64,000 nt of DNA, taken from positions 1-64,000 of the forward strand of contig JAIENY010000010.1 in assembly GCA_019750915.1 (NCBI GenBank), read 5' to 3'. A program made the position numbers and the translations under genes. A model generated the notes under the pieces. The model saw nothing but the letters and a program-made list of their open reading frames with translations, was not told the origin of the DNA and did no database searches. How positions within the stretch are numbered: the stretch's first letter is position 1; the number at the start of each line of letters is the position of its first letter. Of this stretch, positions 34,672 through 42,301 are shown one piece after another. This DNA comes from Xanthobacteraceae bacterium (GTDB lineage Bacteria > Pseudomonadota > Alphaproteobacteria > Rhizobiales > Xanthobacteraceae).

Positions 34672-36327
34672 TCAACTGCGCTTTGCGACGCGCTCTCCAA
34701 GACGCGCGGCGAGACGTGACAACGCCGGGGAATGGTCATTGCGCTCCAGCATGACCTGGATCAGGGTATAGCTTTGTAGGTTGGTCCCGGCTCGCTCCAG
34801 CGCCGCGGCCATCTCCGTCTCGGTTCCGACTTTGATCCCCAGGCCTGCGCCAAGAACCAAGGGGATTTCTGCAAAATTCCAACGGTGAACATCGTTAAAT
34901 GCGCCGTCGAGCATCGGCCGTTCGGTGCCGTAGCCGTCATTGTCGAGGACGATGACGATTGGATTCATGCCGTAGCGCGCGATCGTCGATAACTCCATTC
35001 CTGTCATCTGGAATGCGCCGTCGCCGACCAGCACGAGCGGGCGCAGGTTTGGAGCCGCTGCCGCCATCCCGATCGCCGCGGGTATCGCAAAGCCGAGCGA
35101 GCAGTAATAGGCCGGAGCAAGGAAATGGGTGCCGTCGTGAATGTAGAGATCACCGGCGCCGAACAGCGCATCTCCGGGATCGGCAATGACGACCATATCC
35201 TCCCGGAGAAATGCATTGATCTGATGAAACAGCGCGGCCACCGTCATCGGGCGTTCGCCTGCGGCAAACGGGCCCGGGTGTTTTAGATGTTCGAAATCAG
35301 CGGGCCGTCGTATGGTCCAGCTGTGCTCCGAGAGCGCCTGCATAAAGTCTTCCATCAGAACGCCGTCGTAACTGCGGAAGCCGACGCTGACGCGGTCCTT
35401 GCCGGCATAGATGCTTGAGCTCCGATCGATGTGAGCGGTGTAAATGCCAAGGTTGATGTCGGTCAGCATGGCGCCGAGCAGAATCACGCAATCACTCTGC
35501 TCGACATAGTCGCGCACCGCGTCGGATCCCATGGCGCCCTCGTAAAGGCCAAGATAGAGGAGGTCCGATTCGGCGAAGACCGATTTTCCGCCGAGCGTTG
35601 CGGCAACGGGGATGCCGGTTGCATGTGCGAATTTGGCGAGGGCGTGTTGCAAGCCAAAGCGATGGATTTCCAGTCCAGCGAGAATGACCGGGCGCTTCGC
35701 GGAGCCAATCTTTTCGACCGCTTCCGCTATGGCAAAGCGAAGCACCTCCGCATCGCTTGTCTCCGCGGGTAGAACGTACTCGCGCCCAGGCAGAAGTTCG
35801 ACCGAAACCATGTCGCGCGGCAATTCGATGTAAACGGGGCGGCTGTGTCTGCGGGCGAGCTTGAGTGCACGGTCAATCTCGCTTGCCGCTGTGGCGGGAT
35901 TATCCAGAACCACGGTCGCGACTGTCAGCTCGCTGAAAACCTTACGCTGGCTGTCGAAGTCCCGCACGGTGTGATGGATCATTGACCCGTGCACCCGTTC
36001 GCCAATACCGGGGGCGCCGCTGACGACCACGACCGGCGACCATTCTGCGAAAGCCTGCGCCACTGCGTTGACGACCTTGAGGCCGCCGACCGCATAGGTG
36101 ATGCAGACAACGCCCAGACCGCGCAGTCTGGCGTAAGCGTCCGCCGCAAATCCCGCGCCCTGTTCGTCGCAGGTGTTGATGATCTTGAGGGGGCTGTCTT
36201 CCAGCTTCTTGAACAGGCCGAGGACAAAATCGCCCGGCACACCGAAAACGTGGCCGACATCCTCTTCATGGAGTCGCCGAATGAGATAGTCGCCGATCGT
36301 TTCGCCGGTCATGCCCTCATCCCGCAT
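34672..36327 (-). CDS. Thiamine-diphosphate-dependent 2-keto-acid decarboxylase (indolepyruvate/phenylpyruvate/pyruvate decarboxylase-like)
   Basis: YLIRRLHEEDVGHVFGVPGDFVLGLFKKLE; HHTVRDFD; GDGAFQMTGMELSTIARYGMNPIVIVLDNDGYGTERPM. Confidence 0.88.
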   Translation of the reverse strand: MRDEGMTGETIGDYLIRRLHEEDVGHVFGVPGDFVLGLFKKLEDSPLKIINTCDEQGAGFAADAYARLRGLGVVCITYAVGGLKVVNAVAQAFAEWSPVVVVSGAPGIGERVHGSMIHHTVRDFDSQRKVFSELTVATVVLDNPATAASEIDRALKLARRHSRPVYIELPRDMVSVELLPGREYVLPAETSDAEVLRFAIAEAVEKIGSAKRPVILAGLEIHRFGLQHALAKFAHATGIPVAATLGGKSVFAESDLLYLGLYEGAMGSDAVRDYVEQSDCVILLGAMLTDINLGIYTAHIDRSSSIYAGKDRVSVGFRSYDGVLMEDFMQALSEHSWTIRRPADFEHLKHPGPFAAGERPMTVAALFHQINAFLREDMVVIADPGDALFGAGDLYIHDGTHFLAPAYYCSLGFAIPAAIGMAAAAPNLRPLVLVGDGAFQMTGMELSTIARYGMNPIVIVLDNDGYGTERPMLDGAFNDVHRWNFAEIPLVLGAGLGIKVGTETEMAAALERAGTNLQSYTLIQVMLERNDHSPALSRLAARLGERVAKRS

Positions 36328-36583
36328 CGACGCCGTCTGGTTACGAACAACATACATCAGGACGACGGGCAATCGAGCCAAAACAGCAGACAATGGCCCC
36401 ATGTGGCAGCGGCTGATGGTGTCTGTCGCCGCTGCTGTCCGGTCAAGTCCGACGTGGCGTCCATACGATCTCGAACCGAAAACGACGTATTGAATGAGCC
36501 GCGAGTGTCCGGCGAGGAGCGCCGTTCACAAGGATTCAATCAATACGCCGCCCTGGATCAGGCTGCCTGCGAAAAGGATGAAC

Positions 36584-37072
36584 TCAGTCTTCCTTGAAGC
36601 CGTATTCGGCATTGTTGCCGGTCGCGCCATAATACTTGTAGGGCAGGAACTTGCCCGACATCGTGATCTTGACGCGGTCGCCCTTCGGGTTGGCCAGCCG
36701 TTCCATCGCCATATCGAAATCGATCGCCGACATGATGCCGTCGCCGAATTCTTCTTCGATCAGCGCTTTCCATGCCGGTCCGTTGACCATCACCAGCTCG
36801 TAAAGCCGATAGATCAGCGGGTCGGTCGGAGGCATGGTCACGCCCTCGCCGCGCATCGGAATCTCGTTGATCATCGCTTGTTCTGTCTTCGACAATCCGA
36901 ACAGCTTGGCGGCGTTCTCGGCCTGCGGCTTGGTCAGCTTCATCTGGCCGAGAATCGCGCCGACGATCAGCACCTCCGAGTGGCCGCCGATTTCCTGGCA
37001 GATATATTTCCAGCTCCAGCCTTTCTCGCGCTTGATATCGAGCAGCTTCTCGGTGAGGTCGGTTCGTTTCAT
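36584..37072 (-). CDS. cynS: Cyanate hydratase (cyanase)
   Basis: KREKGWSWKYICQEIGGHSEVLIVGAILGQMKL; PTDPLIYRLYELVMVNGPAWKALIEEEFGDGIMSAIDFDM; KYYGATGNNAEYGFKED. Confidence 0.97.
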   Translation of the reverse strand: MKRTDLTEKLLDIKREKGWSWKYICQEIGGHSEVLIVGAILGQMKLTKPQAENAAKLFGLSKTEQAMINEIPMRGEGVTMPPTDPLIYRLYELVMVNGPAWKALIEEEFGDGIMSAIDFDMAMERLANPKGDRVKITMSGKFLPYKYYGATGNNAEYGFKED

Positions 37073-37092: not shown

Positions 37093-38004
37093 TTATTTGA
37101 GGTGACTCTGGATGGTGACAGGACGTTTTGCCTCGCCTGATGAGGACGATACGATCACAGGTTCATTGATGCCCGGCCGTACCACAGGAACCTTCTTCGG
37201 ATCGCGGGACGGATCGGAGAACGTTTTGCTGCGGGTGACGAGGAAGTCGATGATGTGATTGCGCGTTGCGTAATAAAGGGGATGCCGGTGAAGGTCGATT
37301 CGCACCCGGTCCTTCGGAAGAGGGTTCTCGATGACTTCGGCAAGAACGGCTTTCGGACCGTTCGTCATGAGGAAAATCTTATCCGCAAGATAGATCGCTT
37401 CATCCACGTCATGAGTGATCATAAACGTCGTCTGGCCGCTCTCCACGCAGATGCGGCGAACCTCGTCCTGAAGGGTCCCGCGCGTCAACGCATCAAGTGC
37501 GGAAAACGGCTCGTCCATCAGGAGAATCTTCGGCGAAATCGACAGCGCGCGGGCGATTCCAACGCGCTGTTTCATGCCGCCCGACAGCTGCGAGGGATGT
37601 TTGGCTTCCGAGCCGGTCAGGCCCACGAGGTCGATGAATTGCTGCGCGTGGGCCCTTATCTCGGCCCGGCTCCATTTCGGCCATTTCGATGCCACGGCGT
37701 AGCAGACGTTGCCCATCACGGTGCGCCAGGGAAGCAGCGCATGACTCTGGAAGATCACTGCTCTGTCGAGGCTGGTGCCGTCAATGGCTTGTCCATCGAC
37801 GATCACGGCGCCCTCGCTTGGCATATCGAGGCCGGCGAGGATGTTCAATACGGTCGTCTTGCCGCAACCGGAGTGACCGATGATGCATCCGAATTCGCCG
37901 CGCTCAAGCGACATCCACAGATGCTCGAATACCGTCGCGGTCTCCGATTTGCCGGGGACGGGATAACGGCGCGCGATGTCTTCAATCGAAATAAAACCGG
38001 ACAT
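37093..38004 (-). CDS. ABC transporter ATP-binding protein, nitrate/cyanate (NrtD/CynD) type
   Basis: [44 protein letters not shown]; start [16 protein letters not shown] at 38004. Confidence 0.93.
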
Positions 38005-38009
38005 GGCAC

Positions 38010-38846
38010 CTACTCCGGAAATGTGACCAGCCGCGTGCACCGCGCCAGGATCTGATCGAAGATCATGCCGATCAGGCCGATCAGAAGGATCGCGATGATC
38101 ACGTTGGTGATGGAGAGGTTATTCCACTCGTTCCAAACGAAATATCCGATGCCTGTGCCGCCGACCAGCATCTCGGCCGCGACGATGACCAGCCAGGCAA
38201 TGCCGATCGAGATTCGCATGCCGGTGAGGATCGTCGGAGCAGCGGCGGGCAGAATGATCGTAAATGCGCGGCGGACCGGACCGACTTCAAGGGTGCGTGC
38301 GACGTTGATCCATTCCTTGCGGACCGAGGAAACGCCGAAGGCGGTGTTGATCAGCATCGGCCACACCGCGCAAATGAAGATCACGAAAATCGCCGACGTA
38401 TTGGAGTCCTTGATGGTGTAGAGCGCCAGCGGCATCCAGGCCAGCGGAGAGATCGGCTTGAGAATCTGGATGAACGGATCGAACGCCATGCTGAGTAGCG
38501 GGGACATGCCGATCAGAAATCCGAGCGGGATCGCGACCAGCACGGCGATCGAATAGCCGAGCAGTACGCGCGCAATCGAATATCCGAGCTGAATCCCAAG
38601 CCCCTTGTCGTTCGGTCCCTTGTCGTAGAACGGATTTCTGACCTGCTCCCAGAGCTTCGCGCCGACATCGAGCGGCCCCGGCATTGCAGAGGTGCCCTGC
38701 GTGGCCGTTGTGCCCAGCAGCTTGGCGTATTCGGGATCGAGATTCGCGATCTTGCCACTGGGACGCGTGGCAAGCTGCCACGCCCCAAGAAACGCAACCA
38801 GAATCAGAACCGACACGACGGCAGCGCGAAGTCGGAGGGATGCCAC
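38010..38846 (-). CDS. ABC transporter permease, nitrate/cyanate (NrtB) type
   Basis: [50 protein letters not shown]-like loop. Confidence 0.93.
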
Positions 38847-38850
38847 GGCG

Positions 38851-40233
38851 TCAGCTCGCCTTCCTGATCTTGAAGCTGTTCAGGTATTCGTCCGGCTTTG
38901 ACGGGTCGAATGTCTTGCCCATGACAACGAACGATTTTGTCGTCGCAGCGGGTGGGGTGAGTCCGACGTCCTTCATCAGCCTTGCGGTGTCGGTTGCGAG
39001 GAACACTTCCTGCGCGACCTTGTCGTAGTCCACATCGCCCTTGATCTGTCCCCAGCGCTTCATCTGCGTCAGGATCCAAACCGCGAAGGACTGCCATGGG
39101 AACGGATCGAAATCGACACGCTCGGGCTGTTTGACGATGGAGCCTAGACCATCTGCGAAGGTGCCGGTCAGAATTTGTTCCAGCACGATCGGCGGCTGAT
39201 TCAGGTAGTTCGCCGGAGCGATGGCCTCGGCGATCTGCTTGCGGTTTTCCGCCTTGTGCGCGAACGCGGTCGCATCAATGATCGATTTCAGTAACGCCCC
39301 GTATGTATTGGGCATCGTGGTGACGAATTCCTTCGATGCGGCGAACGCGCAGCACGGGTGGCCTTCCCAGATATCCTTCGACAGGATGTGGATGAAGCCC
39401 ACATTGTCATAGACCGCGCGCTGGTTCATCGGATCGGGGCCCAAGAAGCCATCGATGTTGTCTGCGCGCAGGTTCGCAACCATTTCCGGCGGCGGCACGG
39501 AGCGGATCTGCACGTCGGTATCCGGGTCGATGCCGTGCTCGGCAAGATAGTAACGCAGCAGATAATTGTGCATCGAATAATCGAACGGGACTGCGAACTT
39601 AAATCCCTTCCAGTTCTTCGGGTCGCGGTTGTCCTTGTGCTTGAGCGACAGCGTGATCGCCTGACCGTTAATGTTCTCCACTGCCGGCATGGTGTAGGGG
39701 ATCGGGTTGGAGCCGGCGCCAATCGTGAGTGCCAGCGGCATTGGCGAGAGCATGTGCGCCGCGTCGTATTCCTTGTTGATGGTTTTGTCGCGGATCACAG
39801 CCCATCCGGCCGTCTTGATGACCTCAACGTTAAGGCCATTCTTGGCGTAGAAGCCCATCGGATGGGCCATGATGATCGGCGTCGCGCAGGTAATTGGAAT
39901 GAAGCCGATCTTGAGATCGGTTTTTTCCAACGGAGCGCCCGCTGCAAATACGTCAGTGGCGGTTTTCAGCGGGAAGAATTGTGAGATCGCGGCCAGTGCG
40001 GCCGATGCGCCGACCGACTTCAAAAATGTGCGTCGCGCGACATCGTGCGGGAACATCGCGCGCATCACCGCGGACGCGACGACATTCTCATAAGTCGATT
40101 CAAGGTTGTCGGCGGGCGCACACTGGAGAGTCGCGGCGTCGCGATCGTGCTCGCCCTGCGAGGCGTGCCGGCCGCAATTGCAACCGGTCGTCAGTTCCGT
40201 TTTTGCGTTGAAAGGATCGTTGAATGTCGACAT
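38851..40233 (-). CDS. ABC transporter substrate-binding protein, NrtA/CmpA type (probable cyanate or related ligand)
   Basis: FIPITCATPIIMAHPMGFYAKNGLNVEVIKTAGWAVIRDK; internal Tat-like ARRTFLKSVGASAALAA; Cys/His-rich N-terminus CNCGRHASQGEHD. Confidence 0.93.
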   Translation of the reverse strand: MSTFNDPFNAKTELTTGCNCGRHASQGEHDRDAATLQCAPADNLESTYENVVASAVMRAMFPHDVARRTFLKSVGASAALAAISQFFPLKTATDVFAAGAPLEKTDLKIGFIPITCATPIIMAHPMGFYAKNGLNVEVIKTAGWAVIRDKTINKEYDAAHMLSPMPLALTIGAGSNPIPYTMPAVENINGQAITLSLKHKDNRDPKNWKGFKFAVPFDYSMHNYLLRYYLAEHGIDPDTDVQIRSVPPPEMVANLRADNIDGFLGPDPMNQRAVYDNVGFIHILSKDIWEGHPCCAFAASKEFVTTMPNTYGALLKSIIDATAFAHKAENRKQIAEAIAPANYLNQPPIVLEQILTGTFADGLGSIVKQPERVDFDPFPWQSFAVWILTQMKRWGQIKGDVDYDKVAQEVFLATDTARLMKDVGLTPPAATTKSFVVMGKTFDPSKPDEYLNSFKIRKAS

Positions 40234-40272
40234 CTGAAAGTCCCCACCTCAGGTTCGCCTGAGTTGGATTAC

Positions 40273-40287
40273 GCAAACGCTGTGCCA
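40273..40287 (-). promoter_or_regulatory. Sigma-54 (-24/-12) promoter for cyanate transporter operon
   Basis: Reverse strand TGGCAC-AGCGT-TTGC matches the TGGCAC-N5-TTGC consensus, about 40 bp upstream of the ABC substrate-binding protein start at 40233. Confidence 0.85.
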
Positions 40288-40341
40288 GCGCGCGTGTGGA
40301 ATAAACTCCCAAGACTTCAATGCGATAACGAATCAGTGCCC

Positions 40342-40395
40342 TTTACGAGATTTCGTGATATACGAAATCTCGTAAACAAAATTACGAAATATCGG
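40342..40395. promoter_or_regulatory. Operator/UAS: perfect 15-bp inverted repeat plus a third related box
   Basis: TTTACGAGATTTCGT-gatat-ACGAAATCTCGTAAA (40342-40376) and ACGAAATATCGg (40384-40395); each unit fits ACGA-N4-TCGT (last one 11/12-like). Confidence 0.85.
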
Positions 40396-40396
40396 G

Positions 40397-42301
40397 ATGC
40401 ATAGAGGGCAACACGTTTTCTCGGGCGAATCTGCCGCGGCGCGGGCGTTTGATTGCGCCGCTGACCCCATGCTGCTGCTTGATTTGAAGGAAGATCGCAT
40501 TGTCGACGCCAACGCTGCCGCCTGCGCCTTCCTCGGCTATGACAAAGATCTCCTGCTGGGATTGAAGATCACGACGCTTCATCCTGAACAGCTCCCGGGG
40601 ATCATTGTTTTCACTCAGGCTGTTTTGTCGCAGGGGTCTTACCGGACGCGGTCACTGACGCCGCGCCATGCAGCTGGCCAGGAGCTTCGTGTCGAGTACG
40701 CAGGCAGCATCGTGCCACAAGGAGAGGCGCCGCTCATCCTGCTGTCGATTTCCGATCTCGATGAACGCCAGCGCCGTGAGGTGGATGCCGCCGCCGCCGA
40801 CTACATGCGCGCGGGAATTGATGGCTGGAAACAGGCCGACCGCGTGTTCCAGGACATCGAGCGTGAGAACCAGCTGATCCTGAGCGCCGCCGGGGAGGGG
40901 ATCTACGGAGTGAACGCGGAGGGAAAAACCACGTTCTTCAATCCGGCCGCCGAAAGGATTCTGGGCTGGTCGGCCGTCGAGCTGGTCGGTCGCGACATCC
41001 ACTCCATCGTCCATCATACGCACCATGACGGACGCCATTATCAAAATGAGGATTGCCCCATCTACGCGGCATTTCGTGACGGTGCGATTCACAACGTGGT
41101 CGACGAGGTGTTCTGGCACAAAAACGGCACACCGATCTGGGTCGAATACACATCAACGCCGATCCGTGACCGCAATGTCGTCGTCGGCGCGGTCGTGGTG
41201 TTTCGTGACGTCAGTCAGCGCCGGGAAGCCGATGAGCAGCTTCGCATCGCCCTGACCGAGGTCGACCGGCTGAGGGAGCGGCTTGAACTTGAAAATGCGT
41301 ATCTGCAGGAAGAAATCAAAATCGAGACCAACGCGCGCGGCATCATCGGTCGTTCTGACGCGATTCAAAACATTCTGAGGCAAGTCAGTCTGGTTGCGCC
41401 CACCGATGCTTCGGTGCTGATCACTGGCGAATCAGGGACCGGCAAGGAGTTGATTGCCCGCGCCATCCACGAGGCCAGCAATCGTCAGGACCGGCCGTTG
41501 ATCCGCGTGAATTGCGCGGCGATTCCGCGCGAATTGTTCGAAAGCGAGTTCTTCGGTCATGCCAAGGGCGCGTTTACGGGCGCGTTGCGCGACCGTATCG
41601 GCAGGTTCGGACTTGCAAGCGGCGGTACGCTTTTTCTCGACGAGGTCGGTGAAATTCCTCTGGAGCTTCAGGGAAAGCTACTGCGCGTTTTGCAGGAGGG
41701 CCATTTTGAACGTGTGGGCGAGGAGCGGACCCGTTCGGTCGACGTGCGCGTGATCGCCGCGACCAACCGCGATCTGAAGCGCGAAGTTCAACAGGGGCGT
41801 TTTCGCGAAGACCTGTATTTTCGTCTCAATGTTTTTCCTATCGAGTCGATTCCGTTGCGCGATCGTCGCGAAGATATCCCTCTTCTGGCACAGCATTTTC
41901 TGATGGCTGACGGAAAAGCATCGAAGGCGAATCTGAGGCTGTTGGAATCTGATGTGCGAAAGCTGTCGCGCTACGACTGGCCCGGAAACGTTCGAGAACT
42001 GCAGAATGTTATCGAGCGCGCGAGCATTCTTTCGCGCAAGGGGCGGCTCTGGATCGATCTGCCGGATTCTCCTCTTCAATCGGTGCGGCCCGTGGAGACG
42101 CATCCGATGGCGCTCGCTCCGATCATGACTGACAGCGAGCTGCGCGCGCAGGAGAAAGCCAACATCCTTGCCGCGCTGAAAGCTGCAAACGGCAAGGTTT
42201 CGGGAGCTGGCGGCGCTGCCGAGTTGCTTGGGATCAAGCCCACCACGCTCGCCTCAAGAGTCAAGACGTTACGTATTGATGCCAAACGGATCAGCAGATG
42301 A
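40397..42301 (+). CDS. Sigma-54-dependent transcriptional activator with N-terminal PAS domains and C-terminal Fis HTH
   Basis: [24 protein letters not shown] loop ([13 protein letters not shown]), [14 protein letters not shown]-terminal Fis helix [21 protein letters not shown]. Confidence 0.96.

Follow-up and report, generated by a model that had tools for sequence, protein, structure and literature searches.

We conclude from sequence comparison that positions 40273 to 40395 of the window (the whole 64,000-nucleotide stretch of DNA that was analysed) form a real and strongly conserved sigma-54 control region, which lies between cynF, the gene of a sigma-54 activator, and the divergent cynABDS genes. 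We put at about 85% the probability that this is a CynF-controlled cyn locus, in which CynF would bind a set of palindromic boxes, activate cynABDS via E-sigma54 and probably control its own gene; binding, looping, autoregulation and sensing by the PAS domains, perhaps of cyanate or nitrogen state, are the parts of this reading that we infer.

The four cynABDS genes are all on the reverse strand. CynA (38851–40233, with its ATG at 40233) is an NMT1-like ABC substrate-binding protein, CynB (38010–38846) an NrtB-like ABC permease, CynD (37093–38040, the longest open reading frame, whose real start is possibly internal) an NrtCD-like ABC ATP-binding protein, and CynS (36584–37072) a cyanase that matches PRK02866 and TIGR00673 above cut-off. 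A thiamine-pyrophosphate decarboxylase-like gene (34672–36402) follows cynS on the same strand, and none of the first 24 related loci that we inspected had a match to it.

In E. coli, the cyn genes are under the control of CynR, a protein of the LysR type, and in cyanobacteria they are under NtcA. These regulators resemble CynF in controlling a cyanase gene, but they belong to other families and no sigma-54 activator is involved. The sequence-only reading had regarded a dedicated sigma-54 cyanate activator as a different wiring, a claim to novelty that falls because CynF of Pseudomonas pseudoalcaligenes (oleovorans) CECT5344 is already published. According to that report (PMC6627978), cynF is divergent from cynABDS, which has a putative sigma-54 promoter in front of cynA; its product is a sigma-54 activator essential for cynABDS expression, and this expression is induced by cyanate and repressed by ammonium. 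The window locus shares the divergent activator, the cynABDS gene order and the putative promoter before cynA; it differs in being alphaproteobacterial. Activator boxes are not mentioned in the main text of PMC6627978. In the open-access literature that we searched, no CynF or NitA binding site is described, and we found neither binding nor footprint nor transcription-start data on a CynF. The activator as such is already known; its DNA recognition code, which our comparisons indicate is common to NitA, appears to be undescribed.

Promoter, boxes and activator

The −24/−12 element reported at 40273–40287 on the reverse strand, TGGCACAGCGTTTGC, was borne out, with 0 mismatches to TGGCAC-N5-TTGC. 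The cynA ATG follows ∼40 bp downstream, and the cynA transcription start is predicted near 40261. Across 110 orthologous arrays, the element is conserved with 0–2 mismatches; the best match had at most one mismatch in 105 of the 110, compared with 1/110 when spacers were shuffled. As exceptions that weigh against the CynF-controlled reading, two Rhodobacteraceae loci (L019 and L021) retain boxes 1 and 2 but show no recognisable sigma-54 site where one would be expected. An rpoN mutant of Bradyrhizobium sp. DOA9 expresses less cynS (PMC13207237), which would fit this reading if that cynS belongs to a CynF cluster.

Upstream of the promoter are three predicted CynF boxes: box 1, ACGAGATTTCGT (40345–40356), a 12-bp ACGA-N4-TCGT unit; box 2, ACGAAATCTCGT (40362–40373), 17 bp from box 1; and box 3, ACGAAATATCGG (40384–40395), 22 bp from box 2. 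The earlier statement that each unit can be written ACGA-N4-TCGT holds for boxes 1 and 2, but not for box 3, which ends in TCGG and thus carries one mismatch. Each 12-mer is a palindrome in its own right, with a consensus near T-ACGA-RATY-TCGT-A.

CynF is encoded on the forward strand (40397–42301) as a 634-aa protein of PAS-PAS-AAA+(GAFTGA)-HTH organization. Its GAFTGA loop is intact, as had been noticed from the sequence, and starts at residue 391, with PF00158 (sigma-54 interaction, AAA+) matched at E = 5e-74. The putative C-terminal Fis-type HTH gives an HTH_8 match (E = 9e-4) that is under the curated cut-off, and its recognition helix is conserved in orthologues. We regard the protein as an orthologue of Pseudomonas CynF: it is 57% identical to the activator encoded beside cynABDS in a Pseudomonas other than CECT5344, P. 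toyotomiensis (L012), and in our tree these two proteins fall within one clade, with NitA outside it. Among solved structures, the PAS domains had no match better than E = 6e-5, too weak for a ligand to be assigned. Shorter forms of CynF of ∼500–530 aa (L210, L212–L218 and L222–L229) have a single PAS, the N-terminal one being absent, and their loci keep the promoter and boxes 1 and 2; the first PAS is therefore not required for the arrangement.

At one cynF locus (L204, in genome G011), the boxes read ACAA-N4-TTGT and the recognition helix carries a Ser-to-Ala change (TTLAAR), while at L016 and L017 ATGA..TCAT-like boxes are found together with an NPTTL helix. These single cases are only suggestive of box divergence accompanying recognition-helix divergence.

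Conservation of the boxes and their association with the regulator

The pattern ACGAN4TCGT-N5-ACGAN4TCGT has exactly one occurrence in the 3.35-Mb assembly that contains the window. The exact two-box dyad is present in 66 of 297 genomes of the family, once in each and always at a cynF locus, which bears out the supposition that the boxes belong with this activator; a reversed control pattern was found in 0/297. A CynF orthologue was identified in 65 of these 66 genomes, and in the remaining one (G272) the cynF locus is cut by a contig end. Family-wide, 96/297 genomes have a CynF orthologue and 200/297 a cyanase, so that about half of the cyanase-bearing genomes have no CynF orthologue. We rejected a wider regulon within the window's own genome: the sole other dyad (G000:C39) has two mismatches, and the reversed control is equally frequent.

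A motif search beside orthologues, named in advance by the sequence-only reading as a point on which it could fail, found the dyad kept upstream of orthologous cyn loci, in 110 arrays from alpha- and gammaproteobacteria, an array being retained when its mismatches summed to ≤3. Boxes 1 and 2 are spaced by 17 in 106 arrays and by 18 in four, the second spacing is 21–23, and nearly all of the 110 loci have a cynA or cynS match on the cyn side. The array is absent from outgroup activators with other recognition helices, and one locus (L156) has the activator and promoter with no clear array. In some gammaproteobacteria (L231, L233, L152 and L015), cynF is divergent from cynS, which is followed by a formate/nitrite-family transporter-like gene, and there is no cynABD; this replacement suggests that the transporter-like gene may be another cyanate importer. 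A planctomycete activator (L023), with 55% identity over the AAA+ part, has ACGA-N4-TCGT-like units with 18 and 20 bp spacing before a different gene set.

NitA, the regulator of the Nit1C nitrilase/cyanide-assimilation cluster, is likewise a sigma-54 activator that is usually divergent from its target, and is of the Fis type to which CynF probably belongs too (PMC11049912). In our tree, the clade sister to CynF is that of the NitA-type regulators (L011, L154 and L016, with L014 next to L011), of which L011, L014 and L016 adjoin Nit1C genes. NitA and CynF have ACGA-N4-TCGT boxes in common; NitA differs in its target, nitBCDEFGH, and, in Pseudomonas, in usually having two boxes 22–23 bp apart at a longer promoter distance (about 115–117). 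The window cynF is linked to cynABDS and not to nitB–nitC, the linkage that marks a NitA gene.

A box pair with ≤2 mismatches was found at all 22 Pseudomonas/Acinetobacter nitB promoters analysed (19 from the genus of G482, plus L011, L014 and L016). In contrast, it was present at none of 15 nitB loci lacking a CynF-like gene in their 1.5-kb flanks, 14 of which have a sigma-54 site. The boxes therefore go with the regulator and not with the pathway, and we rejected the idea that they are a general feature of Nit1C. The Nit1C cluster of the window's own genome (G000:C84:62639–63115; L251 and L254) is one of these 15 loci: a perfect sigma-54 site stands before nitB, whereas boxes of the CynF type are absent and the 1.5-kb flanks contain no CynF-like gene.

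Roles of the boxes and alternative explanations

We propose that CynF, as a sigma-54 enhancer-binding protein, would bind the three palindromic boxes and, from boxes 1 and 2 at ∼90–106 bp upstream of the predicted cynA start, would loop onto E-sigma54 at the −24/−12 element, so that the cynABDS promoter would be opened when cyanate is present and ammonium absent. From box 3, at the cynF start codon, it would probably control expression of its own gene. A point against this proposal is that IHF sites, which might assist looping, and NtrC sites, a possible route for ammonium control, were matched in the intergenic region of the window only with at least three mismatches.

The distances between the sigma-54 element and box 1 cluster near 53, 61, 72–74, 83–86, 92–98, 106 and 115–117. 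Their phasing gives a resultant of 0.70–0.74 at a period of 10.7–11.0, a value that none of 5000 uniform draws attained at any clustering level, under a null that ignores phylogeny and shared ancestry; the signal persists when one value is taken per 70%-identity cluster (22 clusters). Because the distances step near one helical turn, they favour a role of the boxes in contacting promoter-bound polymerase. A second role is suggested at the other end of the array: in 80 of 97 loci, no more than 15 nt separate the end of box 3 from the earliest in-frame start of cynF, and in the window the gap to the start codon is 1 bp. In three genomes in which nitA is separated from nitB (by ∼11 kb in G890, ∼7.6 kb in G732 and ∼1.1 kb in G758), boxes stand before nitB, and a further set lies just a few bases upstream of the nitA start; this nitA set matches exactly in G890 and shows a single mismatch per box in G732 and G758. 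Together with the position of box 3, this supports an enhancer role at the target and an operator role at the regulator gene.

The position of box 3, and the boxes just before the start codon of relocated nitA genes, would also be accounted for if the boxes were an operator for cynF alone, and cynA were activated from a different site, by CynF or by some other protein. We consider this unlikely, because the boxes at nitB persist with nitA up to ∼11 kb away, the spacing between boxes and sigma-54 element shows helical phasing, and the one-PAS L222–L229 group has lost box 3 while retaining boxes 1 and 2. It is less probable still that the boxes bind a different protein, for example NtrC or another nitrogen regulator, and that CynF binds elsewhere. 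Nitrogen control must enter somewhere, given that the cyn genes are ammonium-repressed in a relative; nevertheless, every NtrC-like match in the intergenic region of the window has at least three mismatches, each dyad is the only one in its genome and lies at cynF, and Nit1C promoters without a CynF-like neighbour are also without boxes.

The perfect 15-bp inverted repeat with a 5-bp spacer that had been described does exist in the window: its arms, 40342–40356 and 40362–40376, are 100% complementary and 5 nt apart. It might be taken for a hairpin or attenuator within leader RNA, a reading to which we attach very little weight: the repeat is located upstream of the cynA promoter, conservation is that of individual palindromic boxes, and the N4 of box 1 shows no covariation with that of box 2. 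The two N4 parts are complementary at 1.95 of four positions on average, as against 1.97 ± 0.07 after shuffling, and perfectly so in 10/110 arrays. We therefore rejected the 15-bp repeat as a functional or conserved unit and regard it as arising incidentally from two palindromes whose centres match. Finally, although short motifs are common, chance repeats beside a chance −24/−12 match are already refuted by the 66 genomes with one dyad each, all beside cynF and none for the control, and by the ≤1-mismatch promoter element in 105/110 arrays against 1/110 shuffled.

A proposed recognition code common to CynF and NitA

The CynF-controlled reading supplies CynF, which until now has been known from mutants alone, with a DNA recognition code and a fixed promoter architecture; it also connects CynF with the cyanide-assimilation regulator NitA, and direct tests become simple. 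We suggest tentatively, as a possibility somewhat against the odds, that CynF and NitA descend from one activator for small cyano compounds and still read the same DNA code, with arrays acting as both target enhancer and regulator-gene operator, and that this would lead to cross-regulation between cyanate and cyanide/nitrile use. If so, cross-regulation would be expected in bacteria that have both CynF and NitA, such as P. pseudoalcaligenes CECT5344. Within the bacterial family of the window, the presence of the exact dyad in a genome marks CynF-controlled cyanate use with very high specificity.
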